A stretch of DNA of 32,238 nucleotides. Source: Acidiferrobacteraceae bacterium. Lineage in GTDB: Bacteria; Pseudomonadota; Gammaproteobacteria; Arenicellales; UBA868. Made by a program: the position numbers and the translations under genes. The stretch lies in NCBI GenBank assembly GCA_018698075.1, contig JABINT010000092.1, forward strand, positions 1-32,238, in the 5' to 3' direction. How positions within the stretch are numbered: the stretch's first letter is position 1; the number at the start of each line of letters is the position of its first letter. The notes under the pieces were generated by a model that saw nothing but the letters and a program-made list of their open reading frames with translations, did no database searches and was not told the DNA's origin. Of this stretch, positions 257 to 17,200 are shown piece after piece.

Positions 257-711
257 ACTGCCCCGCTCTCCCATAGATGTCGTTCCTCAATACAGCAGAG
301 CCTTGTTCGGTCTGACGCCAGAAAACAACCGGAACTCCAGTTCCAGGCATCAACCATAGTGCATGATTTCGCCCCCATCCTCCCCGGACCATGTCGCTAA
401 CAGCCTCAGCTCCCCCAACAGCAATCCCCCAATACCTTGGTCATTTATCGAAGACCGCGTTTATACTTCCTATACGCTTAAACCAGAATATTGATCGGCA
501 TCTATCTTCACAATTGGCTCCCTGAAACCTTCGCTAGCATCGAATTATGTCGCTTGACCAGTTAATCATGCCCGATCCAGTAGCCTGTTACAATTTGATA
601 CCATTCGGAAAAACTTGGGACAAAATTGACTCTCACACAAGGTCAACTGCAGTCTGTGCCGATTCTGCATCAACGTAGAATTGCTCCAAACTAAATACCG
701 GGGGACATAAA
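257..711. mobile_element. Non-coding flank of the IS91-type element; 455 bases without a gene
   Basis: No convincing gene lies here. The left part, to about 400, resembles the non-coding tail that follows the transposase stop in IS91-type elements, which carries one terminus of the element. It contains a short palindrome at 331-344 (GGAACT, CC, AGTTCC). I cannot place the terminus exactly, because IS91 elements have no long terminal inverted repeats and do not duplicate their target. The right part contains the probable promoter and leader of the acyl-CoA synthetase operon. Confidence 0.45.
586..594 (+). promoter_or_regulatory. Possible extended -10 promoter for the ligase/Liv operon
   Basis: TG-T-TACAAT fits an extended -10 element (TGnTATAAT, one mismatch) about 120 bases before the first gene. 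The correctly spaced -35 position (566-571) does not match TTGACA, and the nearest TTGACC (554-559) is too far upstream. This is a weak inference from sequence only. Confidence 0.25.
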
Positions 712-2673: not shown

Positions 2674-3482
2674 GTTCAGACCAATCCACACAAACCGCTG
2701 ATGGCCGCACAATTGGCGGACCGATTATGGAAGTCAAAGACATCTCTTTGAAATTTGGTGGTGTTACTGCGATTAAGAATATCTCATTTGATATAAACGA
2801 AGGCGAAATCCGCGCGATCATCGGGCCAAACGGCGCCGGAAAAACGTCGATGCTCAACGTCATTAACGGTTTTTATCATCCTCAAGAGGGACAGATTGTT
2901 TTTCGCGGTGAAGCCCGGACGGCAATGCGGCCGTATGTTGCTGCAAGTCAGGGAATTTCCCGCACATTTCAAAATGTTGCGCTGTTTGAGGGCATGTCCA
3001 CACTAGATAATATTATGGCTGGTCGAACTCTGAAAATGAAGAAGAATTTCTTTTGGCAGATGCTGCGGTTTGGCCCGGCGGAAGTTGAGGAATTTGAACA
3101 TCGAAAGGTTGTCGAAGAAATCATTGATTTCCTTGAAATTCAAGCCATTCGGAAAACACCAGTAGGGCGGTTGCCGTACGGGTTGCAAAAGCGCGTCGAG
3201 CTCGGGCGGGCACTTGCCGCTGAGCCGTCCCTTTTGCTGCTAGATGAGCCTATGGCAGGTATGAACGTTGAAGAAAAAGAAGATATGAGCCGGTTTATCT
3301 TAGATGTGAACGACCAGTTCGGCACAACGATTGCATTGATAGAACATGACATGGGTGTTGTGATGGATATCGCTGACCGTGTTGTTGTTCTGGATTACGG
3401 TCAAAAAATTGCCGACGGGCTACCCGCCGAAGTCCAAGCCAACCAAGATGTAATTGACGCTTATCTGGGGGTGGCGCACTGA
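2670..3482 (+). CDS. livG: Liv-type ABC transporter ATP-binding protein (LivG-like)
   Basis: Cytoplasmic ATPase of a branched-chain-amino-acid-type (HAAT) importer; it powers transport through the LivH/LivM channel. The 270 residues show Walker A GPNGAGKTS (52-60), the Q-loop SRTFQNVALF, an ABC signature in the LivG style (LPYGLQKRVELGRAL, where most ABC proteins have LSGGQ), Walker B LLLLDEP and the switch histidine in EHDMGVV. An N-terminal extension of about 19 residues precedes the domain. The start ATG overlaps the ligase stop, and the stop TGA overlaps the livH ATG, so this is the second gene of a tightly packed operon. Family assignment is firm; substrate is unknown. Confidence 0.93.
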   Translation: MSSDQSTQTADGRTIGGPIMEVKDISLKFGGVTAIKNISFDINEGEIRAIIGPNGAGKTSMLNVINGFYHPQEGQIVFRGEARTAMRPYVAASQGISRTFQNVALFEGMSTLDNIMAGRTLKMKKNFFWQMLRFGPAEVEEFEHRKVVEEIIDFLEIQAIRKTPVGRLPYGLQKRVELGRALAAEPSLLLLDEPMAGMNVEEKEDMSRFILDVNDQFGTTIALIEHDMGVVMDIADRVVVLDYGQKIADGLPAEVQANQDVIDAYLGVAH

Positions 3483-4438
3483 TGGATCTTTTATACGATA
3501 TTTTCGCTGACCCGTTCGTTCAAATGGCTGGAATGCCCGACTTTTTTGTTCAGGTCCTTTGGGAGGGTTTTGTTACCGGCACCCTCTATGCATTGATTGC
3601 TCTGGGTTTTGTTTTGATATTCAAAGCGTCGGGGGTATTTAATTTTGCCCAAGGCATCATGGTGGTTTTCGCTGCACTTACTTTGGTAGGGCTATACCAA
3701 GCGGGCGTGCCAGCTCTTTTGGCGCTCGTCCTTTCTCTTGGAGTTATGGGAACGTTGGCGGTCTCTGTCGAGCGACTGGTTTTGCGACATCTGGTTAATC
3801 AGCCCGACATCATTCTTTTCATGGCGACGATCGGCCTGTCTTATTTTTTAATCGGATTTGGAGAGTTCATATTCGGTGGTGAGACAAAATCTATGATTAC
3901 GTCTGAACTGGGGCTTCCTACTGGTTCCAGCGTTGTTGATTTTGCAGGTGGAATTGTGATTTTTCAGCATATCGACATTGCTGCCGTGGTCATTGCGGGA
4001 ATTCTTGTCACCAGTCTTGCATTGTTTTTCAGCAAATCTCGTATCGGTCGAGCGTTGCGCGCAGTTGCGGATGACCATCAAGCGGCACTGTCCGTCGGTA
4101 TTTCGTTGAACCAAATTTGGGTGATCGTTTGGTTTGCAGCCGGCATAGTTGCTCTGGCAACGGGGATCATGTGGGGTGCGCGTTCTGACGTTTCTTTCGC
4201 GCTTCAAATTGTTGCTTTAAAGGCGCTACCGGTTTTGATTTTAGGCGGATTTACTTCAGTTCCAGGCGCCATCGTCGGTGGATTGATCATCGGGTTTGGT
4301 GAAAAGATATTTGAAGTTTACTGGGGTGGGCTACTTGGCGGCGGTGTTGAAGGCTGGTTTGCCTATGTCATTGCGCTGATCTTCCTGCTTTTCCGACCCC
4401 AAGGCCTGTTTGGCGAAAAAATCATCGAGAGGATATAG
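3482..4438 (+). CDS. livH: Liv-type ABC transporter permease (LivH-like)
   Basis: Inner-membrane permease, 318 residues, strongly hydrophobic with about eight membrane segments. The stretch GTLYALIALGFVLIFKASGV near the N-terminus (followed by FNFAQG) is the hallmark of LivH proteins, as are RAVADDHQAALSVGI in the cytoplasmic ATPase-contact loop and LGGFTSVPGAIVGGLIIG near the C-terminus. It ends with FRPQGLFGEKIIERI, again typical of LivH. It pairs with the LivM-like protein encoded directly downstream. The start ATG shares its A with the livG TGA. The ligand is decided mainly by the binding protein, so the permease gives no substrate clue. Confidence 0.93.
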   Translation: MDLLYDIFADPFVQMAGMPDFFVQVLWEGFVTGTLYALIALGFVLIFKASGVFNFAQGIMVVFAALTLVGLYQAGVPALLALVLSLGVMGTLAVSVERLVLRHLVNQPDIILFMATIGLSYFLIGFGEFIFGGETKSMITSELGLPTGSSVVDFAGGIVIFQHIDIAAVVIAGILVTSLALFFSKSRIGRALRAVADDHQAALSVGISLNQIWVIVWFAAGIVALATGIMWGARSDVSFALQIVALKALPVLILGGFTSVPGAIVGGLIIGFGEKIFEVYWGGLLGGGVEGWFAYVIALIFLLFRPQGLFGEKIIERI

Positions 4439-4442
4439 CGCT

Positions 4443-5519
4443 ATGATTTATCGCGAAACCGGGCAGTTCAAAACAAATTACAAAGCCGACAACTCTATTT
4501 TTCCGATCCTGCAAGATCGGATAGCGATTATTTTTTACTTGTTTGTCGCCTTTATCGTCATTCCGGCTTTTGGGTCAGATTTTTTCATAAACTCCATGAT
4601 GATCCCGTTTTTGATCTTTGCGCTGGCAGCCATCGGATTGAATATTTTAACTGGCTTCACAGGGCAAATATCGCTTGGAACAGGCGCGTTTATGGGAGTT
4701 GGAGCCTACTCCTGTTATAAGCTGGTCACCATATTTCCCGACACCAACGTTATTTTTCTCATAGTAATTTCAGGGTTTTTCAGTGCGGCCATCGGCATGG
4801 TATTTGGCCTGCCGTCGTTACGGATCAAGGGATTTTACCTTGTGGTGACAACCCTTGCTGCCCAGTTCTTTTTGGAGTGGTGCTTTATTCGCATTGAGTG
4901 GCTTTACAACTACAACACGTCAGGTGCGATCGAAGTTCCTCGGCGTGAAGTTTTTAATGTAATTGTCACAGGACCAGAGGCCGCCGCGGTCACTCAGTAT
5001 CTGGTTGTTTTGAGTATCGTTGTTGCGATGACCTGGATTGCCTCTAACCTTATTCATGGCCGAATTGGCAGGTCGTGGATGATGATCCGTGACATGGATA
5101 TTGCAGCCGAACTCATGGGGGTTCGTCCACTTTATGCCAAATTATCGGCTTTTGCAGTTTCTTCGTTTTACGCGGGCGTTGCTGGTGCAATGATGGTGTT
5201 TATGTGGCTTGGGGCGGCTGAAGTTGAAAGTTTTGATGTCAATCACTCGTTCCTCATTTTGTTTATGGTCATCATCGGTGGGCTTGGCAGTATTAAAGGG
5301 TCGTTCCTTGGCGCTGCTTTTATCTGGATGTTGCCCGTTGTTCTCAGAGCATTTCCAAAAGCTCTTGGGCTGGATGTTCCGGTTGCCACGGTTGAGCACG
5401 TCAATTTCATGATTATTGGCGGGCTGATCATCTTTTTCCTTATTATAGAACCGAACGGGTTGGCCCGTATTTGGGCATTGTTAAAACAGAAATTACGCGT
5501 GTGGCCTTTTCCATATTAG
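4443..5519 (+). CDS. livM: Liv-type ABC transporter permease (LivM-like)
   Basis: Second inner-membrane permease of the Liv-type importer, 358 residues. Family blocks include GLNILTGFTGQISLGTGAFM, GLPSLRIKGFYLVVTTLAAQ, RSWMMIRDMDIAAELMGV (the loop contacting the ATPases), and VIIGGLGSIKGSFLGAAF. About eight to ten membrane segments are evident. I chose ATG 4443 rather than an upstream TTG at 4410 because GAGAGG (4427-4432) sits about 10 bases before it and the longer form would overlap livH by 29 bases. The C-terminus IEPNGLARIWALLKQKLRVW is the usual LivM ending. G+C is low here: a hand count of 4501-4560 gives 24 of 60. Confidence 0.93.
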   Translation: MIYRETGQFKTNYKADNSIFPILQDRIAIIFYLFVAFIVIPAFGSDFFINSMMIPFLIFALAAIGLNILTGFTGQISLGTGAFMGVGAYSCYKLVTIFPDTNVIFLIVISGFFSAAIGMVFGLPSLRIKGFYLVVTTLAAQFFLEWCFIRIEWLYNYNTSGAIEVPRREVFNVIVTGPEAAAVTQYLVVLSIVVAMTWIASNLIHGRIGRSWMMIRDMDIAAELMGVRPLYAKLSAFAVSSFYAGVAGAMMVFMWLGAAEVESFDVNHSFLILFMVIIGGLGSIKGSFLGAAFIWMLPVVLRAFPKALGLDVPVATVEHVNFMIIGGLIIFFLIIEPNGLARIWALLKQKLRVWPFPY

Positions 5520-5591
5520 GCTGCTGTCAAAATTGGTCAGGGATGAAACCACCCCGGCCCAACAAAGCAAGACTGGTTTCAATATCGTGAA

Positions 5592-5615
5592 GCAAGCAAC
5601 AGTTGGGTTGCTTGC
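5592..5615 (+). promoter_or_regulatory. Perfect hairpin between livM and livK
   Basis: GCAAGCAAC, loop AGTTGG, GTTGCTTGC: a perfect 9-bp stem with a 6-base loop, ending 8 bases before the GGGAGGA ribosome site of the binding-protein gene. No T-run follows, so it is not a classic terminator. Hairpins at this place in ABC operons often mark RNA processing or stabilise the binding-protein message, which fits a need for excess LivK; that role is inferred. Confidence 0.55.
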
Positions 5616-5635
5616 ATAACTTGGGAGGAACAGAA

Positions 5636-6937
5636 ATGTTCAAGAAAGTAACGACAGGGGCGGTTGCACTAGCAATCGTATCAACTCTGCAGATTGCACC
5701 GGTAAGCGCGCAAGAAACGCTATATGTACCGTTGCTGACATATCGTACTGGTCCATTTGCCGGTGGTGGTATTCCTATCGCCAATGGCTCGGCTGATTAC
5801 TATGCGATGCTTAACGAGCGCGACGGTGGTATTGGTGGCCTGAAAATTGTCACTGAAGAGTGCGAAACAAGCTACAACTCACAAAAAGGCGTTGAGTGTT
5901 ATGAAGCCACCAAGGGCAACGGCGCTCTTGTTTATAACCCATACTCAACCGGCATTACGCTTCAGCTTATTCCAAAAGCTCCAGTTGACGAAATTCCGGT
6001 GCTGTCGATGGGCTACGGTCTTTCTGCTGTTGCTGTAGGTGAAAAGTTCCCTTGGACCTTTAACTATCCTGCGTCTTATTGGGACCAAATGTCTTCGATT
6101 ATCAGCTTTATTGATACTCAAGACGGCGGCATCAAAGGTAAGAAAGTCGGATTTATCTACCTTGATGTTGGATACGGCAAAGAGCCTATTCCACTATTGG
6201 AATCACTGTCAGAATCCATGGGCTTTGAAGTTGTGAAGTTCCCGGTTGCTGGTAAAGAAATGCAGACGCAATCATCGCATTGGCTGAACGTTCGTAAAGA
6301 AAATCCTGATTGGATGATCATGTGGGGCTGGGGTGCAATGAACCCAACCGCGATCAAAGAAGCGGCCAAAATCAAGTACCCAATGGATCACTTCATTGGC
6401 AACTGGTGGTCAGGCGCTGATGTTGATCTAAAACCGGCTGGCGAAGCTGGCAAAGGGTACCGTTCAGCTAATATGGCTGCATCGGGCACGCATTTCCAAG
6501 CACTTCAAGACGTCATTAAGTATGTTGTTGAACCTGGCAACAGTCAGGCAGATCCCGACACAGTCGGAAGCGTTCTTTACAACCGTGGTCTCTATAACTC
6601 GGTTGTTGTTGCAGAAGCCATTCGCACTGCGCAGGAAATTGCGGGTCACGCAAACATTACCGGCGCAGAAATGCGCGCTGGTCTTGAAGCACTTGATCTT
6701 ACTGCTGAGCGTCTGGCCGAACTGGGCCTTGCTGACTTTACTGCTCCGATCAAAGCAACATGCGAAAACCATGGTAGCGGCGGTTCGATCTTCATGCAGC
6801 AGTGGGATGGATCAAAATGGGTTAGAACATCCGATTTGATTGCGCCGATGACAGATCTGGTGCGTGCAGAACTAGAAGCTGCTGCTGATCAGTACGTGTC
6901 AGACAAGCCTAATTGGAAAACCCAGTCCTGTAACTAA
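5636..6937 (+). CDS. livK: Liv-type periplasmic substrate-binding protein (LivK-like)
   Basis: Periplasmic ligand receptor of the Liv-type importer, 433 residues, of the type-I periplasmic binding fold (Peripla_BP_6 type). The N-terminus MFKKVTTGAVALAIVSTLQI plus APVSA-QE is a Sec signal peptide with likely cleavage after SA at about residue 23. The mature protein begins ETLYVPLLTYRTGPFAGGGI, the usual first strand and ligand loop. ATG 5636 was chosen over a TTG at 5603 because GGGAGGA (5623-5629) precedes it and the signal peptide starts exactly here. It is longer than amino-acid-binding LivK/LivJ (about 345-350 mature residues) and belongs to the larger group often found beside acyl-CoA ligases, which favours a carboxylic-acid ligand. 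It is bracketed by two perfect hairpins. Confidence 0.92.
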   Translation: MFKKVTTGAVALAIVSTLQIAPVSAQETLYVPLLTYRTGPFAGGGIPIANGSADYYAMLNERDGGIGGLKIVTEECETSYNSQKGVECYEATKGNGALVYNPYSTGITLQLIPKAPVDEIPVLSMGYGLSAVAVGEKFPWTFNYPASYWDQMSSIISFIDTQDGGIKGKKVGFIYLDVGYGKEPIPLLESLSESMGFEVVKFPVAGKEMQTQSSHWLNVRKENPDWMIMWGWGAMNPTAIKEAAKIKYPMDHFIGNWWSGADVDLKPAGEAGKGYRSANMAASGTHFQALQDVIKYVVEPGNSQADPDTVGSVLYNRGLYNSVVVAEAIRTAQEIAGHANITGAEMRAGLEALDLTAERLAELGLADFTAPIKATCENHGSGGSIFMQQWDGSKWVRTSDLIAPMTDLVRAELEAAADQYVSDKPNWKTQSCN

Positions 6938-6952
6938 GTCGGATCAATAAAA

Positions 6953-6982
6953 GTGGCCAACCCCTTCATTGGGGTTGGCCAC
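6953..6982 (+). terminator. Strong hairpin after livK (terminator or attenuator)
   Basis: GTGGCCAACCCC, loop TTCATT, GGGGTTGGCCAC: a perfect 12-bp stem starting 15 bases after the livK stop. A short T-run (ATTTTTA, about 6992-6998) lies ten bases beyond the stem, farther than in a textbook terminator. It probably protects the upstream livK message and lowers read-through into livF. Confidence 0.75.
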
Positions 6983-7014
6983 CCGAACGATCATTTTTAG
7001 CATGGAAGCACGAA

Positions 7015-7848
7015 ATGAGTATGTCTGAAGAAACTCAAACAAGCCAAGACTGCCTGCTTGAAGTGAATAATATTGAAGTCCTTTATAATCACGTCATTCT
7101 GGCCCTAAAGGGCGTCAGTCTCTCCCTTCAAGAAGGCGGAATTACAGCCATTCTGGGCGGCAACGGCGCTGGGAAAACAACTACTTTAAAGGCCATTTCA
7201 AATCTTCTTCACTCCGAAAGAGGCGAAGTTACCAAAGGTGTAATTTCGTATCGAGGAGAACCAATTGCTGATCTCAACCCGGCCGCACTTGTCAAAAAGG
7301 GTGTAGTCCAGGTGATGGAAGGTCGGCATTGTTTTGAGCACCTGACCATTGACGAAAACTTGCTGACAGGTGCATTCACCCGAAAGGATGGAAGCGGTGC
7401 TATCAACAGCGACATCGATCTGGTTTATTCATATTTTCCTCGCCTCAAAGAAAGGCGGAAAAGTCTTGCCGGGTATATCTCCGGTGGCGAACAGCAGATG
7501 TGTGCCGTTGGTCGCGCGCTGATGAGCCGCCCAGAGACGATTTTACTAGATGAGCCGTCTATGGGCCTGGCGCCACAGCTTGTTGAAGAGATTTTTGATA
7601 TCATCAAGGACCTCAACGAAAAAGAAAAAGTGTCCTTCCTGTTAGCCGAGCAAAATACCAGCGTGGCACTGCGTTATGCCCACCACGGCTATATTTTGGA
7701 GAGCGGACGCGTGGTTATGGATGGACCGGCGGAGGAGTTGGCCCAAAATCCTGACGTTAAGGAATTTTATCTTGGCATCTCGGATGAAGGTCGGAAGTCA
7801 TTTCGTGACACACGGTCGTATCGGCGCCGCAAGCGCTGGCTAAATTAG
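7015..7848 (+). CDS. livF: Liv-type ABC transporter ATP-binding protein (LivF-like)
   Basis: Second ATPase of the Liv-type importer, 277 residues. Walker A is GGNGAGKTT, the signature ISGGEQQMCAVGRAL (LivF style), Walker B TILLDEPSMGLAP, and the switch region LLAEQNTSVALRYAHHGYIL. There is an N-terminal extension of about 14 residues and an unusually basic C-terminal tail (RKSFRDTRSYRRRKRW) of about 25 residues after the normal LivF end (KEFYLGI). The tail is typical of the LivF subgroup found with AMP-ligases and aromatic or fatty acid clusters, though that association is from memory. An in-frame second ATG at 7021 could also be the start. It follows the strong hairpin downstream of livK, so its expression may be set apart from livK. 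Confidence 0.92.
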   Translation: MSMSEETQTSQDCLLEVNNIEVLYNHVILALKGVSLSLQEGGITAILGGNGAGKTTTLKAISNLLHSERGEVTKGVISYRGEPIADLNPAALVKKGVVQVMEGRHCFEHLTIDENLLTGAFTRKDGSGAINSDIDLVYSYFPRLKERRKSLAGYISGGEQQMCAVGRALMSRPETILLDEPSMGLAPQLVEEIFDIIKDLNEKEKVSFLLAEQNTSVALRYAHHGYILESGRVVMDGPAEELAQNPDVKEFYLGISDEGRKSFRDTRSYRRRKRWLN

Positions 7849-7935
7849 GACATAATTTATGGGCCGTTAATGGGCCGGAAAAATGCAAGGAAAACGCAGT
7901 TGCGAAAGCTCGGAATTGATTTGGGAACGAACTGA

Positions 7936-9162
7936 ATGTCGGATTTTCTAAACGATCTGGAAGGACGATCTTCTGATCAGCGGGATCAGGACATTGCGAT
8001 GGCGTTACCCCAGCAAATCGCTTTAGCTCAGGCACGTGCCACAGGTTTTTCAGATCATTTAAAAGGTGTTTCCCCACGCGGTATTTTGTCCGCAGCCGAT
8101 TTGGCCAAATTGCCAGTTTTGCGCAAATCTGACATTGGCCAGGCCCAATCAAAAAACCCGCCATTTGGAGGTTTTACAACAAAGCCTGCTAACAAATTTC
8201 GACACGTGTTTCAGTCTCCGGGTCCAATCTATGAGCCTGGAGAAATATCTGACGACTGGTGGCGAATGGCACGGTTCTTGAACGCGTGTGGCGTAACCGA
8301 AAACGACATTGTTCAGAACTGCTTTTCATATCACATGACGCCTGCTGGCATGATTTTCGAAAGCGGGGCGCATGCCATAGGGGCAACAGTATTTCCGGCG
8401 GGTACAGGGCAAACCGAATTGCAGGTGCGAGCAGCGCGTGCATTAAGTGTTACAGCCTATGCCGGCACACCGGATTATCTAAAAACAATCCTGGACCGCG
8501 CCGATGAGATGGGTGTTGACCTTTCAGGGATCACTAAGGCAGGCGTCGGCGGAGGCGCGTTATTTCCGTCGCTGCGTCAGGAATATGCTGATCGGGGTAT
8601 TAGGTGTCTTCAGTGTTATGCTACGGCAGATGTTGGCAATATTGCCTACGAGTCCTCTGCAATGGAGGGCATGATCGTTGACGAAGGCGTTGTTATTGAG
8701 ATTGTGACGCCGGGCACTGGAAACCCAGTCGCTGAGGGCGACGTTGGCGAAGTACTAGTGACAACACTCAACACGGATTACCCCCTTATCAGATTTGCAA
8801 CCGGCGATATGTCGGCGGTTCTACCCGGGCAAAGTCCCTGCGGACGAACGAATATGCGGATAAAGGGCTGGATGGGCCGCGCGGACCAGACAACTAAAAT
8901 TAAGGGTATGTTCGTTCGGCCCGAGCAGGTCGCAGCTTTGGTTGCTAAAAACGACTCAATAACCAAGGCACGTGTGATCGTCAGCCGTGAAAACGAGAGC
9001 GATATCATGACTGTTCAGGTTGAAAGTGAGAAGCAAGGTTCACAGGATATTGAGGCAAGCGTACTTGAAACTCTGAAAATGCGTGGCACTGTGATAGTCA
9101 TGAAGCCAGGCTCTTTGCCTAACGATGGCAAAGTCATCGAAGATCAAAGGAGCTATGAATAG
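7936..9162 (+). CDS. PaaK-like adenylate-forming ligase with atypical P-loop
   Basis: 408-residue member of the phenylacetate-CoA ligase family, slightly shorter than PaaK (about 430-440). Recognisable blocks are KLPVLRKSDI near the N-terminus, NCFSYHMTPAGMIFESGAHA, the aspartate of RFATGDMSAV, GRADQTTKIKGMFVRPEQV and a C-terminal lysine in NDGKVIEDQR. The usual Gly-rich SSGTTGKP loop is replaced by FQSPGPIYEPG at about residues 94-104, so ATP handling may differ or adenylation may be lost. It lies 87 bases after livF with no strong ribosome site, and probably closes the operon. With the first-gene synthetase it gives two CoA-ligase-type proteins for one transporter. Likely substrate is an aryl or other carboxylic acid; catalysis is not proven by sequence. 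Confidence 0.8.
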   Translation: MSDFLNDLEGRSSDQRDQDIAMALPQQIALAQARATGFSDHLKGVSPRGILSAADLAKLPVLRKSDIGQAQSKNPPFGGFTTKPANKFRHVFQSPGPIYEPGEISDDWWRMARFLNACGVTENDIVQNCFSYHMTPAGMIFESGAHAIGATVFPAGTGQTELQVRAARALSVTAYAGTPDYLKTILDRADEMGVDLSGITKAGVGGGALFPSLRQEYADRGIRCLQCYATADVGNIAYESSAMEGMIVDEGVVIEIVTPGTGNPVAEGDVGEVLVTTLNTDYPLIRFATGDMSAVLPGQSPCGRTNMRIKGWMGRADQTTKIKGMFVRPEQVAALVAKNDSITKARVIVSRENESDIMTVQVESEKQGSQDIEASVLETLKMRGTVIVMKPGSLPNDGKVIEDQRSYE

Positions 9163-9175
9163 CGAGGGGGTGTTC

Positions 9176-9568
9176 ATGCCGCAATTTTTCAAAAGCCTAT
9201 TCGCAGCACCTGCTCTTTTATTCCTGATTTCGCTTCCGCTTTTCGCTCAGGATTTGTCACTGGTAATCGGGAACAAATCTTACCGTCACGCGGGATGGAT
9301 GTACGAGGCCGAGACGGCGCTAAATTCTGAGACCAAGCTTAGAAACATAGGTTTTACCGTTGTTTCCGGTCGCGACATGGATCACCTAAAAACGCGGCAA
9401 GCTTTGGAAGAGTTTGTTGATCGACTGCCGGACGCCGGAGCTATTGTTGTGCTGCTGAGTGACCATTTTGTTCACGCAGACCATTTGTCGGCCCGCAATG
9501 CCTTTCGACCGAACCATAGATGTGCGTATCGGTCATCTGCGGCGCCGACTATCAAATGGCGTAACTGA
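9176..9568 (+). pseudogene. Caspase-like (peptidase C14) gene, 3' truncated by recombination
   Basis: A signal peptide (MPQFFKSLFAAPALLFLISL, cleavage near FAQ-D) is followed by LSLVIGNKSYRHAG, a stretch with TKLRNIGFTVVSGRDMD, an amphipathic helix and GAIVVLLSDHFVH. This is the N-terminal half of a secreted caspase-fold domain: the first strand, then the strand that carries the catalytic histidine. The normal small residue before that histidine (usually Gly in GH) is Asp. The cysteine half is absent. At about 9475-9492 the similarity ends and the same DNA, one frame over, encodes a response-regulator tail, so the last 25 or so residues are out-of-frame junk. ATG 9176 is preferred because GAGGGGG (9164-9170) precedes it; earlier ATGs overlap the ligase gene. 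Confidence 0.65.
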
Positions 9569-9650
9569 TGGCAAACAACTGCTTAAGACGGTGCGCGGTG
9601 CCGGCTATATGCTAGCCAGTGAAGTAACCTACAAGGACCTGGCAGTCTGA
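9489..9650 (+). pseudogene. OmpR-family response regulator, C-terminal DNA-binding remnant
   Basis: In the frame of 9489-9650 the translation reads FDRTIDVRIGHLRR, then LLKTVRGAGYMLA, then a short tail and TGA. These are the recognition helix and wing of OmpR/PhoB-type winged-helix response regulators, which normally end exactly this way. The receiver domain and the start of the DNA-binding domain are missing, and no start or ribosome site belongs to it. Upstream DNA encodes a caspase-like protein in another frame. I therefore read it as the 3' remnant of a backbone regulator gene cut off by the insertion to its left. G+C rises from this point onward. Confidence 0.8.
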
Positions 9651-9669
9651 TGGGCAATCTTAACGGTCC

Positions 9670-9698
9670 GGCCTTGGCTAAAGAGCTTAGCCAAGGCC
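9670..9698. terminator. Perfect inverted repeat between regulator remnant and ssb (bidirectional terminator candidate)
   Basis: GGCCTTGGCTAA, loop AGAGC, TTAGCCAAGGCC: a perfect 12-bp stem with a 5-base loop, in the space between a plus-strand remnant and the 3' end of minus-strand ssb. Neither side has a clear T-run, so Rho-independent function is uncertain, but the convergent setting suits a shared terminator. Confidence 0.65.
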
Positions 9699-9754
9699 CA
9701 CAGACCTCGATCTTTGCTGATTAGCCGGGCAGGCCCGCCCGATACGACACCTTC

Positions 9755-10207
9755 CTAGAATGGGATATCATCGTCAAAATCACCATCTTGGCCTCCACCC
9801 CCACCTCGACTCGCCGGCGCTGCCTCAGCCTGACTGTAATCGGGTGGTGAGCCGCCCTGCGAATCGCCGCCACTGCGGCCTCCCAGGAAGGTCATATCCC
9901 TCGCAACAATATCGGTTGACCATCGATCAACACCTTCTTTATCCTGATATTTAGTTGTCTGAAGCCTGCCCTCTATATAAACCTGCGACCCTTTCTTTAA
10001 ATACTCGCCTGCAAGCTCTGCCAGCCTGCCAAAAAGCTTGACCCGATGCCACTCTGTTTTTTCCTGCTGCTCACCAGTGTTCTTGTCCTTCCACCTTTCG
10101 GAGGTCGCGATAGAAATACTGGCAAACGCATTGCCATTTGCTGAATAGCGAATCTCAGGATCCCGCCCCAGATTCCCAACAATAATCGCTTTGTTAACCC
10201 CTGCCAT
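9755..10207 (-). CDS. ssb: Single-stranded DNA-binding protein
   Basis: 150-residue SSB. The N-terminal OB-fold domain starts [20 protein letters not shown] and contains [28 protein letters not shown] and [16 protein letters not shown] Gly/Ser/Gln-rich linker follows, and the acidic tip DFDDDIPF binds partner proteins of replication and repair. Length is normal for a proteobacterial housekeeping SSB (E. coli 178). In many Gammaproteobacteria ssb sits beside the MFS gene and uvrA; here both lie about 8 kb away on the far side of a transport/hydrolase block. No CTGT-N8-ACAG LexA box is visible upstream. Confidence 0.97.
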
Positions 10208-10226
10208 TTTTCACACCTCTTTATAT

Positions 10227-10249
10227 GCTGCGACAAATCTGTCGGGGCA
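10227..10249 (-). promoter_or_regulatory. Hairpin in the ssb 5' leader
   Basis: CGACA, loop AATC, TGTCG (10231-10244), extended outside a 2-base mismatch by TGC/GCA, lies about 20 bases upstream of the ssb start codon. Such a stem could modulate ssb translation or be part of an operator. The evidence is structural only. Confidence 0.3.
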
Positions 10250-10340
10250 TGAATCCGGCCACAGTACAAAAAATTGTTGCCCGATCCTGCTCCCGCCACT
10301 CGATCAGACGAGTATACCGCTGTTTCTACCGCCTGTTGGT

Positions 10341-10367
10341 GTGCAAATTACCCTTGACTTTTTGCAC
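10341..10367. promoter_or_regulatory. Operator-like inverted repeat upstream of the Pot operon
   Basis: GTGCAAA and TTTGCAC form a perfect 7-bp inverted repeat with a 13-base spacer that contains TTGACT (10354-10359). The spacing puts the arm centres 20 bases apart, about two helical turns, as expected for a dimeric regulator. No regulator gene is adjacent, so the binding protein is unknown. Confidence 0.4.
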
Positions 10368-10471
10368 AACTATTATTGGCAGAACATCCACTACAGGCGT
10401 GAACACACATCAAATACACCGCCAGCAAAGTTGCAGCTCCTATCGATCAAATCCATCCAGCAACAGCTTTT

Positions 10472-10501
10472 TTGAGTTCAATTGACAGTCACAAATAGAA
10501 T
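10472..10501 (+). promoter_or_regulatory. Possible sigma70 promoter for the potA-like operon
   Basis: TTGAGT (10472-10477), an 18-base spacer, and TAGAAT (10496-10501) match the consensus at 4 of 6 and 5 of 6 positions. Transcription would start near 10508, leaving a leader of about 87 bases ending in GAAAGGAG before the potA-like ATG. Confidence 0.3.
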
Positions 10502-10594
10502 CCGCCAGTATAGGCCCCAGCGCGGAAAGAAAAAAATGAATGCCGAGCTAATTCACTGCCGTCGACTAATATCAGTTTAAGAAAGGAGACATAC

Positions 10595-11689
10595 ATGAGC
10601 GACGATGTCGCTGTTGAGGCCCGTGGTGTCTCGAAAATCTTCGGAGCATCGACAGATCAGGAAGTTAGGGCTCTGGATCATGTTTCTGTCTCGATAGCCC
10701 AGAACGAATTCTTCACCCTGCTTGGGCCGTCAGGCTGCGGCAAAACTACCCTGCTGCGATTGATTGCGGGGTTCGAGCACCCAACCGATGGTGCAATCTT
10801 GCTCGAAGGTAAGGACATCAGTGCCTTACCACCGTTTCAAAGACCGGTTAACACCGTTTTTCAGAACTATGCACTTTTCCCGCATATGACGGTTGCGCAG
10901 AACATCGGCTTTGGTCTGGAGATGCAGGGTCAATCTAAAGACGAAGTGGCAAATACCGTTGGCGCAATGCTGGTCCTGGTCAAGATGGAGAACCTCAAGA
11001 ACCGGCGGATAGATCAGATATCCGGTGGACAGCAGCAGCGGGTGGCGCTGGCACGTGCGCTCGCGCCACGTCCTAAAGTCCTACTGTTAGACGAGCCACT
11101 TTCCGCGCTCGACCTGAAACTCCGAAAGGAGATGCAGGTTGAACTCAAACGACTACAACATGAAACAGGTATCACCTTCATCTTCGTCACTCACGATCAA
11201 GAAGAGGCGCTGACCATGTCTGATCGGGTCGCCGTCATGAACGAAGGCAGGATTCTGCAGGTCGGCGCACCACATGAGATCTATAACCGGCCCAACGATC
11301 GGTTCGTCGCCGACTTCATTGGAGACACCAACTTCATGCCGGCTGAAGTTATCGAACACGATGAGAGTGAGGTCCGGATACGACTACCGAGCGGTATCGA
11401 GATAACAATCCCTGCGCCGCCGGGCCTGCCTCAGGGCAGCGAGGTCACGCTTGCCATACGGCCGGAACAAGCACGCATCGTCACTGACGCCGATGCCATA
11501 TCGATTCAGGGTTCTCTGACCGATGAAATCTATATCGGCACCGATACCCAGTACCGTGTCGACATTGGGATGACCTCCCCCTTCGTTGTCCGGGTACAGA
11601 ATGCCAATGGTGAAAGAGCACGTATTCCGCTGGGCTCTAGGGTCGGTATCGCTGTTGACCCAAGGACGATACAGATTCTCCAGGACTGA
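10595..11689 (+). CDS. potA: Polyamine-type ABC transporter ATP-binding protein (PotA-like)
   Basis: 364-residue ATPase of a spermidine/putrescine-type importer. Walker [10 protein letters not shown] (44-52), Q-loop [11 protein letters not shown], signature [16 protein letters not shown], Walker [13 protein letters not shown] and switch VTHDQEEAL are all intact. A C-terminal TOBE/OB-type domain of about 120 residues ([10 protein letters not shown]... [10 protein letters not shown]) is typical of PotA/PotG. A strong GAAAGGAG ribosome site precedes the ATG. Three bases separate its stop from the potB-like start. Pot-family transporters import polyamines but related ones carry other cationic or amino-acid-like compounds, and the hydrolases downstream make such a substrate plausible. 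Confidence 0.93.
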
Positions 11690-11692
11690 GCT

Positions 11693-12640
11693 ATGAGCGC
11701 CGAGCAGGACAGCAGTACCGAGTCTTTCGAGAGCCTCGAAGCGCATGCGTACCAGCTAGAGGTCCGTCGGAATCTGCTGCTTTCCACACCGGCACTGATC
11801 GTTCTTTTCTGTGCTGCGTCTGGGCCTTTACTCATCATGCTGGTCTTTTCCTTTCTGACGCCAGGCGACTACGGAGGAATCAAATGGCAGTTCTCTACTG
11901 AGGCGTGGTTCCAGGTCGCCTTTTACCGGGATATCTTTGATGAGACTGTATCTATCGCAGACGCCCACCTCTCGATCTTCTGGCGCTCGGTCAAGCTGTC
12001 GTTCCTGACGACTCTGGTGGCTTTTGTGCTGGGCTTTCCCACCGCCTACTTTATTGCGACCCGATCACCGGAGACACGCAATCTCTGGCTCTTTCTGGTG
12101 ACGATTCCGTTCTGGACAAACCTACTGATCCGTACCTTCGCGATTCTTGAAATCATCCGTAACCAGGGTCTTGTGAACAATGTTCTCATTGCACTTGGAG
12201 TGATCGATCAACCACTCGACATGCTTTACACCGACATCGCGATCCTGCTCGGCATGACATACGTGTATATCCCGCTCATGATCCTGCCGATTTATGCCTC
12301 GATGGAGCGCTTTGATTTCCAGCTGGTCGAAGCAGCTTATGATCTGTACGCGACACGCTGGCGGGTTCTGGTTCGCGTCATTGTGCCTCTGGTTAAGCCA
12401 GGCGTGATTGCGGGATCGATCCTCGTCTTTGTCCCGTCACTGGGCGCCTATGTGACACCACGTGTCCTTGGCGGAGGCAAACATCTGATGATCGGCAACC
12501 TGATCGAACTGCAGTTTGGTCAAGGTCGCAACTGGCCATTGGGCGCGGCACTTTCACTGTCCCTGCTGGTCATCGTCATGGTGGCACTCATTTTCTATGT
12601 CAGATCAGCGCAGAAAGAAGGTGGAGCCCATGGCCACTAG
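11693..12640 (+). CDS. potB: Polyamine-type ABC transporter permease (PotB-like)
   Basis: 315-residue inner-membrane permease with six or so membrane segments and a hydrophilic N-terminus of about 25 residues. The cytoplasmic EAA loop LVEAAYDLYATRWRVLVRVI plus VPLVKPG contacts the PotA-like ATPase. LRTF-like NLLIRTFAILEII and the final VPSLGAYVTPRVLGGGKHLM are PotB hallmarks. The gene overlaps the next one by 11 bases, indicating coupled translation of the two permeases. Confidence 0.93.
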   Translation: MSAEQDSSTESFESLEAHAYQLEVRRNLLLSTPALIVLFCAASGPLLIMLVFSFLTPGDYGGIKWQFSTEAWFQVAFYRDIFDETVSIADAHLSIFWRSVKLSFLTTLVAFVLGFPTAYFIATRSPETRNLWLFLVTIPFWTNLLIRTFAILEIIRNQGLVNNVLIALGVIDQPLDMLYTDIAILLGMTYVYIPLMILPIYASMERFDFQLVEAAYDLYATRWRVLVRVIVPLVKPGVIAGSILVFVPSLGAYVTPRVLGGGKHLMIGNLIELQFGQGRNWPLGAALSLSLLVIVMVALIFYVRSAQKEGGAHGH

Positions 12641-13439
12641 TTCACGCCCGTTCTCCATCGAGCGAATGCCGGGGTTCAGTCTGCTCGCCCTCACCTGCTT
12701 TTTTGCCCTCTACATGCCCCTTGCCCCACTGGTCGTCTATTCATTCAACGCCGGTGACAACATTGCTCTATGGGAAGGTTTGTCACTTCGCTGGTACGTC
12801 GCCGCGTGGGAAAACGACCTCGTCCAAAGTGCTGCGATCCGGTCCGTTGTCGTAGCCGTGATAGCGTCGGTAGTTGCGACTTCGCTGGCAACGATGGTCG
12901 CGCTTGGCACAACGCGCACACGACCCTACCGGGGTCAGACTTCAATTTATGCGATGGTCAATCAGCCACTGATGGTGCCCGAGATTGTGACCGCAGTCGC
13001 GCTGTTGATCTTTTTTGCACTTATCAAGGAGTCAACCGGATACCATGGCTACGCTTACCTCATCAGCGCGCACACCGCATTCTGTATACCATTCGCTTAT
13101 CTACCTATCCGCGCTCGTCTTGAGGGTATGGACCGTGTTCTGGAAACTGCTGCGGCTGATCTTTACGCAACGCCGTGGCGCTCATTTACAAGGGTTACCC
13201 TGCCTCTATTACTTCCGGGTATTCTTGCAGGTGCCATGCTGGCTTTTGTGATTTCACTGGACGACGTGGTGATTACCGAATTTGTCAAATCGGCCGGCCA
13301 GGATACCCTGCCAACTTACATGCTTGGCCAGTTACGGCGTACAATCACTCCGGAGATAAATGCAATTTCCACTGTACTGCTGGGTGTTTCTGTCGTAATG
13401 GTCACGATCATCTTTTTCTTAAGTCGCAAGAAAGCCTGA
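12630..13439 (+). CDS. potC: Polyamine-type ABC transporter permease (PotC-like)
   Basis: 269-residue second permease. The EAA loop is VLETAAADLYATPWRSFTRV with TLPLLLPGILAGAMLAF after it, and SLDDVVITEF is the standard PotC/PotI signature. The first membrane segment is followed by PLAPLVVYSFNAGD, also typical. I chose ATG 12630, preceded by GAAGGTGGAG, over longer frames that run back into potB. The tail ends VVMVTIIFFLSRKKA. Confidence 0.93.
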   Translation: MATSSRPFSIERMPGFSLLALTCFFALYMPLAPLVVYSFNAGDNIALWEGLSLRWYVAAWENDLVQSAAIRSVVVAVIASVVATSLATMVALGTTRTRPYRGQTSIYAMVNQPLMVPEIVTAVALLIFFALIKESTGYHGYAYLISAHTAFCIPFAYLPIRARLEGMDRVLETAAADLYATPWRSFTRVTLPLLLPGILAGAMLAFVISLDDVVITEFVKSAGQDTLPTYMLGQLRRTITPEINAISTVLLGVSVVMVTIIFFLSRKKA

Positions 13440-13491
13440 AACTGAAAACAACGTATATTTCGACAATCACTACAAACCTAAGGAGGAGAAA

Positions 13492-14523
13492 ATGAAGTTA
13501 ATGTTCAAAGCGGTTCTCTCAAGCCTGATGTTGGTCTTCAGCGGCATAGCAATCGCGGCAGGGGAATTAAATCTCTACAACTGGGGTAACTACACAAGCC
13601 CAGAACTCATCGAGAAGTTTGAAAAAGAAACTGGCATCAAGGTCACCATCACAGACTACGACTCCAATGAAACAGCGCTCGCTAAAGTGCGTGCCGGGGG
13701 TCATGGATTTGACCTTGCCGTGCCTTCCCACAGTCATCTGCCTATTTGGATCTCTGAAGGATTAATCGCAAACCCGCGAGTGGATCAGATGTCGAACTTT
13801 AAGAACGTTGCAGAAGAATGGCGTAATCCTGACTGGGACCCGGGTCGCCAATACAGTGCACCATGGCAGTGGGGAAGCGTCGGCGTTATGGTAGATACTT
13901 CTGTTTATGACGGCGACATCAACACTTTCGGAATCATTCTGGATCCGCCTGAAGAATTGATTGGCAAAATCAATGTTGCGCCTGAAATGAACGACGTCAT
14001 CAGCTCAGCCCTTCTCTATCTTGGAGGAGAAGCGTGCTCAGGAGACAAAGAGTTGCTGAAAAAAGCTCGTGACAAATTGGTTGAAGCTAAACCCAAGTGG
14101 AAATCAATGGACTATGGCGTCATTGAGAAGTTCGCAGGACGTGATCTTGCCGCCTCTCTCTACTGGAACGGCGCCGCCTTCCGTGCACGACTTAAGAATC
14201 CTGATGTCCGGTACGGTTACCCGAAGGAAGGTTACTCACTTTGGGCAGATGCGGTTGTACTTTTAAAGGATGCTAGGAATGTCGAGGAAGCTAAAACCTT
14301 CATGAACTTCATCATGACACCGGAGAATGCAGGGCTGATGTCTGCGTTCGCCCGATATGCCAACAGCATTGTCGGATCAGAGAAGTACATGCCTGAAGAT
14401 ATGGCAACAGCCCCTGAGGTTGTTGTTCCGCAAGAGTTCATCGGAGCTGGGAAGTTCTATCCCACTTGCTCACCGGAAGTCCAAAAGATCTATGCAGCAA
14501 TCTGGACCGAACTTCTGAAGTAG
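13492..14523 (+). CDS. potD: Polyamine-type periplasmic binding protein (PotD/PotF-like)
   Basis: 343-residue periplasmic receptor. The signal peptide ends near SGIAIAA, followed by GELNLYNWGNYTSPELIEKF, the standard first strand and 'NWxxY' loop of PotD/PotF proteins. Further blocks are DYDSNETALAKVRAGGHGFD, YSAPWQWGSVGVMVD and EGYSLWADAVVLLKDARN. Two cysteines (GGEACSGD and YPTCSPE) could pair. The ribosome site AAGGAGGAG is very strong, in keeping with high binding-protein output. Base composition is lower in G+C than potABC (26 of 60 at 13561-13620 against 34 of 60 at 10681-10740 by hand count). Ligand specificity cannot be assigned; polyamine or a related cationic amide is plausible. Confidence 0.92.
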   Translation: MKLMFKAVLSSLMLVFSGIAIAAGELNLYNWGNYTSPELIEKFEKETGIKVTITDYDSNETALAKVRAGGHGFDLAVPSHSHLPIWISEGLIANPRVDQMSNFKNVAEEWRNPDWDPGRQYSAPWQWGSVGVMVDTSVYDGDINTFGIILDPPEELIGKINVAPEMNDVISSALLYLGGEACSGDKELLKKARDKLVEAKPKWKSMDYGVIEKFAGRDLAASLYWNGAAFRARLKNPDVRYGYPKEGYSLWADAVVLLKDARNVEEAKTFMNFIMTPENAGLMSAFARYANSIVGSEKYMPEDMATAPEVVVPQEFIGAGKFYPTCSPEVQKIYAAIWTELLK

Positions 14524-14529
14524 CCACCC

Positions 14530-14558
14530 CACCCAGGCCGACCAGGCCGGCCTGGGTG
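14530..14558 (+). terminator. Rho-independent terminator after the Pot operon
   Basis: CACCCAGGCCG, loop ACCAGGC, CGGCCTGGGTG: a perfect 11-bp G+C-rich stem followed at once by ATTCTTTTCCTT. It begins 7 bases after the potD-like stop and ends 16 bases before the first hydrolase gene, so the hydrolases depend on read-through or on their own promoter. Confidence 0.85.
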
Positions 14559-14574
14559 ATTCTTTTCCTTAATT

Positions 14575-15762
14575 ATGAAAACCATGCGGGGTTTTCCCGT
14601 TACCCCTGACACACGAGTCCCCCGGGACGCATGGGATCGCGCTCCCTGGAATCGCTGGTCTTTTCAGCACATCCGCGAGATTCTGCCAACTGTTGAAGTC
14701 TGGCGGGGCAACGGCTCCGTCTGGCAGTTTCAGCAAAATCCGACCGATCTTGATTCTGTAACCTTCACCAGCCACTCGGGCGAGTCCACCAGCGTAATCG
14801 ACTGGCTCTTGCAGAACTATGCCGACGGCATTCTGGTTATGCATCATGGCGAGATTCTCTATGAGCGCTACTTTAACGAGATGACCGAGCGCACGCTGCA
14901 CCTGTCCCAGTCGATGGCCAAGTCGGTAACATCGGCAGTCGCAGGGATCTTGGTTGCGCGAGGTCTGCTTGATCCTGAAGAACGCATCAGCACTTACCTT
15001 CCGGAGTTGGAAAAGACCGGATGGAAAGACGCCAGACTGCGTCATGCGCTGGATATGACCTCGGGCGTACGTTATGTCGAGGACTATGAGGCACTAGACT
15101 CGGACATCGCGGCAACCGATGTCGCCTCCGGCTGGCGGTCCCCAAAACCCGAGATTCCCTACTTTCAGTGCATGTGGGACCAGATCCTGAGCCTCAAGGA
15201 AACCGTTCGTGAACATGGTGCAGCCTTTGAGTACCGCTCGATTGAGACCGATGTGTTGGCCCACTGCATGGAGCGAGTGACACAGACCCCACTTGCAGAA
15301 CTCATCAGCCGAGAACTCTGGCAACCGCTGGGGGTACAGGAAAGTGCCTGCTTTACGGTGGATGCAGCAGGCTACCCGCTGGCGGATGGGGGTTTCAATG
15401 CCACGCTATGCGACTATGCTCGTTTCGGCCAGATGCTCTGCAACGGGGGTGTCGGAAACGGCCGGCAGATCGTGCCGCAGGAATGGCTGCTGGATACCTT
15501 CGACGCGAATCCATCGCTTTTTAGCGATAAAAACAATATGGATCTGGACAACGGGGCTTATCGAAACCAGTTCTGGATCAGGGACATCGACCGTCGAATT
15601 CTGATGGCAAGAGGCGTTTTCGGACAGATCATCTATGCCGATATGGACAACAGTCTAGCTATCACCCGTCTTGCGAGCTGGCCCGAGTTTGTTTCCAGCG
15701 AGCGCAAAACTGATGATCTTCGGGCATTCGATGCCATCACCCATTTCCTCACGGATCACTAG
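14575..15762 (+). CDS. NylB-like serine hydrolase (beta-lactamase fold), copy 1
   Basis: 395-residue cytoplasmic hydrolase (no signal peptide) of the class-C beta-lactamase/6-aminohexanoate-oligomer-hydrolase fold. The nucleophile motif is SMAK (Ser113, Lys116), and the tyrosine motif is YRS (Tyr220) in place of the usual YxN; these positions closely match Ser112, Lys115 and Tyr215 of the nylon-oligomer hydrolase NylB. The third motif region reads ARGVFGQIIY. Family members hydrolyse amides or esters, so a linear amide or an ester are both possible substrates. No ribosome site is visible before ATG 14575 and a strong terminator lies just upstream, so initiation is uncertain; ATG 14584 is an alternative. 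The amidase gene starts two bases after its stop codon ends. Confidence 0.85.
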   Translation: MKTMRGFPVTPDTRVPRDAWDRAPWNRWSFQHIREILPTVEVWRGNGSVWQFQQNPTDLDSVTFTSHSGESTSVIDWLLQNYADGILVMHHGEILYERYFNEMTERTLHLSQSMAKSVTSAVAGILVARGLLDPEERISTYLPELEKTGWKDARLRHALDMTSGVRYVEDYEALDSDIAATDVASGWRSPKPEIPYFQCMWDQILSLKETVREHGAAFEYRSIETDVLAHCMERVTQTPLAELISRELWQPLGVQESACFTVDAAGYPLADGGFNATLCDYARFGQMLCNGGVGNGRQIVPQEWLLDTFDANPSLFSDKNNMDLDNGAYRNQFWIRDIDRRILMARGVFGQIIYADMDNSLAITRLASWPEFVSSERKTDDLRAFDAITHFLTDH

Positions 15763-15763
15763 C

Positions 15764-17200
15764 ATGAGCGATCTTGAACTTTGTTACCTGCCTGCCACCG
15801 AAGCGATTGCCCGGTTCAAGGCCAAAACCCTGTCCCCTGTTGAACTGCTGGAAGCGCTGATCCACCGAGCCGATCAGGTAGAGCCCGTCATCAACGCATT
15901 TACCTACCGTCACTTTGACGAAGCGATGGCAAATGCAAAAAAGGCCGAAGCGAAATACGCCTCTGGCCAGCGCACCCGGGCGCTTGAGGGACTGCCGATC
16001 GGCATTAAGGACGAGAATTTCATCAAGGGTAAGCCCACATCGAGCGGCTCACTTATCATGAAAGACTTTGTGGCCGACAACACCTCGGTCGGTAATGAGC
16101 GGATACTTCGCGCCGGGGGCATCGTCCATGCCCGAACCGCAACACCAGAATTTTCATCCGCAGGATATACAAACTCCCGGTTATGGGGGGTCACCCGAAA
16201 CCCCTGGAATCCTGAGTTCACGCCCGGAGGGTCGTCTGGTGGCTCAGCCGCCTCGTTGGCATCCGGCACCAGCGCAATCGCCACCGGCTCTGATATCGGC
16301 GGTTCCATCCGCATCCCGGCAGGAACCTGTGGACTGGTTGGGTACAAACCGCCATACGGCCGCAACTCGGATGACCCGCCGTTTAACCTGGATTTTTACT
16401 GCCATACCGGGCCTCTGGCGCGAAACGTCAGTGATGCCATCGCGCTTCAGAATGTCATGTGCGGCCCCCACCCCAAGGACGTGGCGAGCCTTCGGCCCAA
16501 ACTGCGCCTGCCTGCGCAGTACCCGCCGATCAAAGACTGGAAGATTGCCTTTTCAATGGACCTTGGCTTCTTTGAGGTTGATCCTGATGTACAAAAGAAC
16601 ACACTGAATGCCCTCGATGTTTTCCGGGATCTCGGGGCAACGGTGGAAGAAGTTGATATCGGGTGGGATCACCGGGTGCTCGATGCAGGACTTGCATACC
16701 TTTCCCATATTTTCGGTGCTTACATGGCGACTTACCTCAAAGACCATGCCGACAAGATGACAAACTATGTACGTCAGTGGGCCGAAGAAGCGCAGAAATC
16801 AACGGCGGCGGAATTTCTCCACACACTGGAGGTGGTTAACGAGATGTATGCCACAGTGGGTCCGCTACTTGAGAGGTACCGAGTGCTCGTCTGCCCCACC
16901 AACGCACTTCCCGCAGTGCCGGCCGACTTTGACCACTCACGGGACACGATCAGTATTAACGGCAAGAGTGTGAACCCTGCGCTAGGCTGGGTAATGACAA
17001 CGCCGTTTAATTCCTTAAGCCGATGTCCGGTACTGACGGTACCCACAGGACACGCCAGTAATGGTGTTCCAACCAGTATTCAGATTGTGGGTCGAACCTA
17101 CACTGACAAGGATGTTTTCCAGGCCGGCATGGCTTATGAGTCAGCTGCCCCAAAGTGGTTTTCAGATGCTGGTCATCGTCCTGGTCTTGCCGGTTCATGA
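15764..17200 (+). CDS. Amidase-signature family amidase
   Basis: 478-residue Ser-cisSer-Lys hydrolase acting on C-N amide bonds. The triad is visible: Lys82 in GIKDENF, cis-Ser157 in GGSSGGSAA, nucleophile Ser181 in GSDIGGSIRIPAG; the 75 and 24 residue spacings equal those of fatty acid amide hydrolase. No signal peptide, so cytoplasmic. ATG 15764 was taken because it follows the preceding stop directly and starts the family's usual N-terminus (the frame is open further upstream inside the hydrolase gene). Its stop overlaps the next start (ATGA). NylA, the 6-aminohexanoate cyclic dimer hydrolase, is of this family and similar length, so a NylA-like role beside NylB-like genes is possible, but many substrates fit. 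Confidence 0.9.
   Translation: MSDLELCYLPATEAIARFKAKTLSPVELLEALIHRADQVEPVINAFTYRHFDEAMANAKKAEAKYASGQRTRALEGLPIGIKDENFIKGKPTSSGSLIMKDFVADNTSVGNERILRAGGIVHARTATPEFSSAGYTNSRLWGVTRNPWNPEFTPGGSSGGSAASLASGTSAIATGSDIGGSIRIPAGTCGLVGYKPPYGRNSDDPPFNLDFYCHTGPLARNVSDAIALQNVMCGPHPKDVASLRPKLRLPAQYPPIKDWKIAFSMDLGFFEVDPDVQKNTLNALDVFRDLGATVEEVDIGWDHRVLDAGLAYLSHIFGAYMATYLKDHADKMTNYVRQWAEEAQKSTAAEFLHTLEVVNEMYATVGPLLERYRVLVCPTNALPAVPADFDHSRDTISINGKSVNPALGWVMTTPFNSLSRCPVLTVPTGHASNGVPTSIQIVGRTYTDKDVFQAGMAYESAAPKWFSDAGHRPGLAGS

Follow-up and report, generated by a model that had tools for sequence, protein, structure and literature searches.

How did a gammaproteobacterial genome come to carry the beginning of one gene joined, out of frame, to the end of another? 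The window (the whole 32,238-nucleotide stretch of DNA that was analysed) has two partial genes in different frames, a caspase-fold start and the tail of an OmpR-type regulator. The features around the join are as follows.

9176-9478, + strand: caspase-fold gene, N-terminal fragment, best read as the cut last gene of an incoming operon (from alphaproteobacterial relatives behind paaK).
9479-9495, no strand: junction, bases assigned to neither side (caspase similarity stops before it, identity to the regulator of genome G005 begins after it).
9496-9650, + strand: native OmpR-type regulator, 3' remnant, residues 200-249 of 249 (G005 identity; Trans_reg_C).
9670-9698, no strand: hairpin separating the regulator tail from ssb, the two being convergent (fold z-score -3.4; none of 200 shuffles scored as well).
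9755-10207, - strand: ssb, native right flank (Pfam SSB 2.5e-39; adjoins the native locus in relatives).

The left-hand frame is the N-terminal part of a caspase-like gene. From the ATG at 9176 it encodes MPQFFKSLFAAPALLFLISLPLFAQDLSLVIGNKSYRHAG..., which reads by eye like a predicted signal peptide, and then the start of a caspase fold. The match to Pfam Peptidase_C14 was 18.1 bits (E 0.0023), under the cut-off of 21.4. Two alphaproteobacterial loci (L043 and L044) matched the fragment with 48-52% identity across 80-87 residues, and in the alignment the similarity was recognisable up to about 9478 (HFVHA), in agreement with the first-pass annotation, made from the sequence alone, which had followed a caspase-fold N-terminus to about 9475. 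The longest frames of these relatives are 580 amino acids (L043) and 567 amino acids (L044); a profile scan found two PG_binding_1 stretches in each and C14 over the cut-off in L043 alone. Only the N-terminal fragment is present in the window, from which the whole caspase fold and PG-binding domains of the L043 and L044 kind are absent. The fragment resembles the prokaryotic caspase homologs and metacaspases surveyed in PMC3501461 in its N-terminal Peptidase_C14-like fold, and differs in being truncated: roughly the first 101 residues are left, and it has lost the remainder of the fold together with the PG-binding C-terminus seen in the relatives.

The right-hand frame is the end of a regulator that is intact elsewhere in the genus. 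Read from 9498, which is 322 bases from the caspase start and so out of frame with it, the last 50 codons encode MPFDRTIDVRIGHLRR...GAGYMLASEVTYKDLAV up to a stop at 9650. This tail matched Trans_reg_C (E 6.5e-8, 33 bits against a cut-off of 26.2) at profile positions 42-77 of 77, and DNA identity to the intact G005 regulator begins at 9496, with 152 of 155 bases identical over 9496-9650. The last 50 residues are thus those of the 249-residue G005 protein almost base for base. In contrast to G005, which has both domains, the tail has neither a receiver domain nor the opening half of the DNA-binding domain, and it has no known start of its own. The earlier assignment of the second frame to the end of an OmpR-type regulator therefore stands, as does the statement that both genes are incomplete. 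The hairpin that follows is likely a terminator; it probably serves ssb, which may be the reason that this stretch escaped loss.

The boundary between the two halves was located to about 17 bases (9479-9495). The first-pass annotation had claimed a near base-exact breakpoint; a boundary is indeed there, although not resolved to a single base. The five bases CGGCC occur on either side of the junction, close to it, but so short a match carries no meaning. The annotated shift in base composition is real as an average, with 48.2% G+C in 480-9478 versus 55.0% in 9496-32238, but there is no sharp step at 9489, since the G+C content around ssb is near 50% too.

The two halves of the join have different distributions among related genomes. 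Matches to part of 9001-9760 (E <= 0.001) were found in 9 of 41 genomes (the window's own genome, G000, and 40 relatives), G000 being one of the nine. Among the relatives, one match ran over the whole stretch, contig C184 of genome G006, at 94% identity and with zero differences over 9403-9513. G005 and G018 matched rightwards only, from 9496 and 9502, respectively. The left half is therefore confined to G000 and G006, and the right half belongs to the backbone that the relatives share. The caspase segment was found in 2 of the 33 genomes of the window genome's family, G000 and G006.

In genus relatives, the regulator lies between ssb and a native transport operon. A tblastn walk with 12 native proteins against 13 stretches gave the native order as ssb, then the regulator and kinase, then ligase-livG-livH-livM-SBP-livF-paaK-speB-SPT. 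On contig C44 of G005, ssb is followed by the intact regulator, a 562-residue histidine kinase with PAS, HisKA, HATPase and receiver matches, and then the acyl-CoA ligase, livG, livH and livM heading away from ssb. An intact regulator and kinase between ssb and the native operon were found in G005, G013 and G015, so that the regulator that the first-pass annotation proposed to look for next to ssb does exist. G015 additionally has a second, paralogous regulator-kinase-ligase locus on contig C25 (L122) besides the one adjoining ssb on C50. The regulator-kinase pair is labile at this locus. Two genomes (G010 on contig C49 and G019 on C168) carry ssb through SPT on a single contig without the pair, and on contig C29 of G006 it is likewise missing between ssb and the ligase. 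In G018 (L011 1194-1442, contig C315; L010 7836-10115 missing) a deletion independent of the event in the window has removed the kinase and two thirds of the regulator, counted from its start, and has left the native operon in place.

The DNA to the right of the junction is that of the native site. From 9496 it was 95.9% identical to G005 across 7.7 kb. The SSB protein of G000 is 97% identical to that of G018 and 77% identical to that of G005, even though the surrounding DNA is closest to G005, and from these comparisons ssb alleles seem to have been exchanged between species. Between ssb and the MFS-uvrA genes (10595-18369) there are, by eye from the open reading frames, a spermidine/putrescine-type ABC transporter, two serine-hydrolase-like proteins and an amidase. 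The homodimeric type of aceE and the gene order uvrA-MFS-ssb would fit a gammaproteobacterial host.

To the left of the junction is an operon with the native gene order, running in the opposite direction.

1-477, + strand: IS91-family element, 3' end; transposase C-terminus at 2-256, then the non-coding end (tblastn; copy in genome G001).
478-9478, + strand: foreign segment of alphaproteobacterial kin (collinear DNA matches, relatives, tree).
712-2673, + strand: AMP-binding acyl-CoA ligase (Pfam PF00501 4.3e-68; same place as the native ligase).
2670-3482, + strand: LivG-like ABC ATPase (NCBIfam LivG 5.9e-71, under the curated cut-off).
3482-4438, + strand: LivH-like permease (NCBIfam LivH 5.6e-22, under the curated cut-off).
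4443-5519, + strand: LivM-like permease (50% identity to G005 LivM; start codon not fixed, frame open from 4410).
5603-6937, + strand: transporter substrate-binding protein (42% identity to the native G015 copy; start codon not fixed).
7015-7848, + strand: LivF-like ABC ATPase (NCBIfam LivF 3.6e-58, under the curated cut-off).
7936-9162, + strand: PaaK-like AMP-dependent CoA ligase (Pfam PF00501; relatives and tree).

The proteins of this operon, ligase-livG-livH-livM-SBP-livF-paaK, are 42-69% identical to those of the native genes, and its DNA is about 66% identical to the native operon. Sequence comparisons indicate that the incoming operon has alphaproteobacterial (Rhodobacterales) kin. Two alphaproteobacterial contigs were collinear with the window: L041 over 1966-7841 and 8098-9024 (71-72% DNA identity) and L044 over 1918-7841 and 8095-9158 (70-72%). 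We searched for relatives of the PaaK-like protein among one genome per species (84,980 species), and the best 80 of 591 confirmed relatives were all alphaproteobacterial by title and 67-74% identical. A PaaK-like gene is present in 13 of the 20 genus genomes; the native copies are 50-56% identical to the window's, and G006 has both kinds. A tree of 94 rows placed the copies of the window and of G006 with the 80 alphaproteobacterial relatives, and the 12 native copies apart from them, with a support of 100, so the resident PaaK groups with a distant lineage, away from the copies of its own genus. Its place near L042, L043 and L044 within the tree had supports of only 85-87. The G+C content of the alphaproteobacterial relatives (55-65% in the seven loci measured) contrasts with the 48% of the segment, and the exact alphaproteobacterial donor was not found among the relatives compared.

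The caspase fragment is most readily interpreted as the truncated final gene of this operon. In 22 of the 80 alphaproteobacterial loci (L042-L044 included) a caspase-like match, partial in a few cases, starts 26-244 bases past the paaK match; 78 of the 80 have at least 1 kb behind paaK. The longer caspase-like gene that the first-pass annotation expected elsewhere was thus found behind the same operon in alphaproteobacteria. The two Rhodobacterales loci, L043 (7148-8887) and L044 (7187-8887), encode secreted-looking caspase-like proteins with PG-binding domains directly behind the liv/paaK operon. By the survey figures in PMC3501461, prokaryotic caspase homologs are common in Alphaproteobacteria, at 0.41 per 1000 proteins, and rare in Gammaproteobacteria, at 0.03.

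The left edge of the foreign DNA is at an IS91-family element. The element was identified by tblastn against plasmid records, in which 3 of the 8 matches listed were annotated as IS91-like ISVsa3 family transposase. A copy of 148-477 is present at a different place in G001 (contig C110); the similarity stops at 477, and from about 478 the foreign DNA follows immediately on the 3' side of the element. In the account of IS801 in PMC3189936, the replication origin is at the right (3') end and copies of the element are suggested to act mainly as recombination regions. The window resembles that IS91-family case in that the 3' end of the element abuts foreign DNA. It differs from what IS91 one-ended transposition would give with the origin at that end, since this would carry DNA beyond the other end, whereas the operon in the window is on the origin side; one-ended transposition is not supported as the carrier since DNA behind the 3' end is on the wrong side. 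We also rejected a native left flank at 275-353 (suggested by G018 contig C414): the same stretch occurs at two other places in G001, once within an IS end.

The native sequence beyond the left edge appears to be on another contig of the same genome. G000 is a 203-contig draft that is 89% complete. Its contig C37 runs from an IS piece (154 bases common to contig C36) through 396 unassigned bases into paaK residues 331-414, speB and SPT, that is, a 3' remnant of native paaK together with speB and SPT. The only match to bases 155-550 of C37 in the retrieved loci was L155, an overlapping locus from that contig. Bases 1-115 of the window are common to C36 and C37, and we infer that C37 adjoins the window from this 115-base IS overlap, which C36 also offers. 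Given that link, native remnants would flank the foreign operon of G000 at both ends, the tail of paaK at one and the tail of the regulator at the other. The right side of the locus (ssb and the regulator tail) is the native site, and the left side (paaK-speB) is so through the inferred contig link. Searches of the G000 assembly found neither a native ligase or liv gene nor a complete native paaK; at 89% completeness, the assembly may be missing the native operon. In G006 the left neighbour is different. A TRAP-like transporter region, its genes named by eye from open reading frames, is joined at the IS end, probably by later recombination at the repeat found there. Beside these genes on C184 (L014 3314-3438) is a dispersed repeat, about 125 bases long, of which G005, G006, G018 and G001 carry copies.

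These comparisons show that the foreign operon and the caspase start now lie beside ssb, at the locus of the native operon in genus relatives. We think it very probable that the join is the right-hand scar left when the native operon was displaced in situ by a xenologous one. Points against this are the incomplete G000 assembly, the C37 link through an overlap common to C36, the native operon pieces in the G006 bin, the different left neighbours of the two carriers, the higher G+C content of the alphaproteobacterial relatives with no exact donor among them, and the low supports for the window's place inside the alphaproteobacterial part of the tree. The interpretation in the first-pass annotation, that this is the right boundary of an incoming low-G+C segment that replaced the start of a regulator, is supported by the genus, alphaproteobacterial and G006 comparisons, which agree. 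The loss appears to extend beyond the regulator start to the histidine kinase and the whole native operon of the same gene order, which that annotation did not see; it also missed the reversed orientation of the incoming operon and the native remnant on C37. Inversion of the native operon was rejected since inversion alone does not explain about 66% DNA identity in the operon versus 95.9% in the flank, and clean insertion into an empty site was rejected since the site no longer has the kinase, the native operon or the greater part of the regulator. In the mechanism that we propose, incoming DNA would have been broken inside the caspase gene and joined at 9479-9495 to the regulator at its codon 200, through recombination with little homology. 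On the left, the incoming DNA would be tied to the IS91-family element as a recombination site, the role suggested for IS801 in the account cited above (PMC3189936). The incoming operon would have taken over the role of the native operon without the two-component control, leaving the two stranded fragments functionless and decaying.

The replacement may also have occurred in two steps, in which the foreign operon landed beside the native one and later deletions removed the latter. We give this possibility somewhat less than an even chance. It is favoured by the lability of the regulator-kinase pair (part-deleted in G018, absent from G010, G019 and C29 of G006) and by the G006 bin, which contains native and foreign operons together. 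The native pieces in that bin, which also count against displacement, are on contigs C11 and C29, of which C29 also carries part of a second ssb, and the bin has 6% contamination. Against two steps, no haplotype was seen with both operons side by side on one contig, and the G006 bin may be two strains mixed, in which case C184 could belong to either. Such a mixture does not weaken C184 as a second haplotype with the join.

The incoming operon has been maintained. Between G000 and C184, the operon genes had pS values of 1.3-4.5% and pN/pS ratios of 0.07-0.45; the low ratios mean that these genes are under purifying selection and are therefore kept. We compared this with the divergence around the operon. 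Across 423-12394, C184 is 97.9% identical to the window with 225 mismatches and is thus a separate haplotype. A fit of two change points to the differences over 275-12394, which was given search ranges only (285-1500 and 9000-10300) and not the junctions, placed them at 471 (468-705) and 9513 (9228-9549), near both junctions. There were 16 differences in 205 bases at 275-479, 105 in 8999 at 480-9478 and 98 in 1099 at 9496-10594, the last including ssb with a pS of 18.6%. The differences fell again on C184 at 10595-12394 (44 in 1800; pS of 5-7% in potA and potB). Parts of MFS, uvrA, aceE and aceF, compared on a different G006 contig, had a pS of 15-23%.

This pattern raises the possibility that the foreign segment is a mobile unit that was inserted twice at the same place or lately exchanged between two lineages, which we consider unlikely. 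The fitted change points, the low divergence inside with higher divergence on both sides, and the low pS of the operon relative to MFS, uvrA, aceE and aceF are what it would produce. However, C184 is close to the window again to the right of ssb, so the right-hand step is largely a local peak around ssb, the gene with exchanged alleles; the left-hand step may stem from a different IS copy, since that of G006 is 98.5% like that of G001; and the MFS-to-aceF values come from another contig, and C184 may belong to a strain nearer to G000. We favour recombination of the flanks with island-free relatives up to the edge of heterology. Recent exchange of the island also fits, and double insertion is least likely. 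The stronger version, that the 9.0-kb segment is a discrete unit transferred from one species of the genus to another long after those species had separated, evicting the native operon and its two-component control beside ssb, is more doubtful still; if it were true, a complete alphaproteobacterial transport operon would be spreading through the recipient genus.

An assembly or binning chimera of two unrelated contigs joined at about 9480, the alternative given by the first-pass annotation, would suit a draft in 203 contigs and two halves that match different relatives, but is highly improbable given that the non-identical G006 haplotype carries the same join. Equally improbable is a working gene made of the fused frame or of either fragment: the frame at 9125-9568 is open in the window and the regulator-tail frame is open in G006 too, but the G006 caspase frame is broken by a stop and a one-base insertion that shifts the frame, and the tail, without its receiver and half of its DNA-binding domain, differs between G000 and G006 by 7 nonsynonymous and 5 synonymous changes over its 50 codons. 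The caspase fragment has 4 nonsynonymous changes and 1 synonymous change, counts that are too small for a test; with its broken frame in G006, it is decaying.

Based on these results, we believe that the locus records a kind of event that is already known and ordinary, and that its merit is its clarity, not its strangeness. Such events have been termed xenologous gene displacement or gene displacement in situ, in the usage found in PMC1274311, which cites Omelchenko et al. 2003. The locus is like the events so described in that a foreign gene set replaces the native version and the flanks are native, and it differs in that a whole seven-gene operon was replaced and reversed, native two-component genes were apparently lost, and the cut ends are still readable. 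Whole-operon replacement has often been argued from trees alone; here the old and new locus, the cut ends and several island-free relatives can be compared side by side. Regulator genes were apparently lost as collateral, and the decaying last gene is an age marker. The locus makes testable the case of an operon that was swapped and reversed, is without its two-component regulator, and would still be working.
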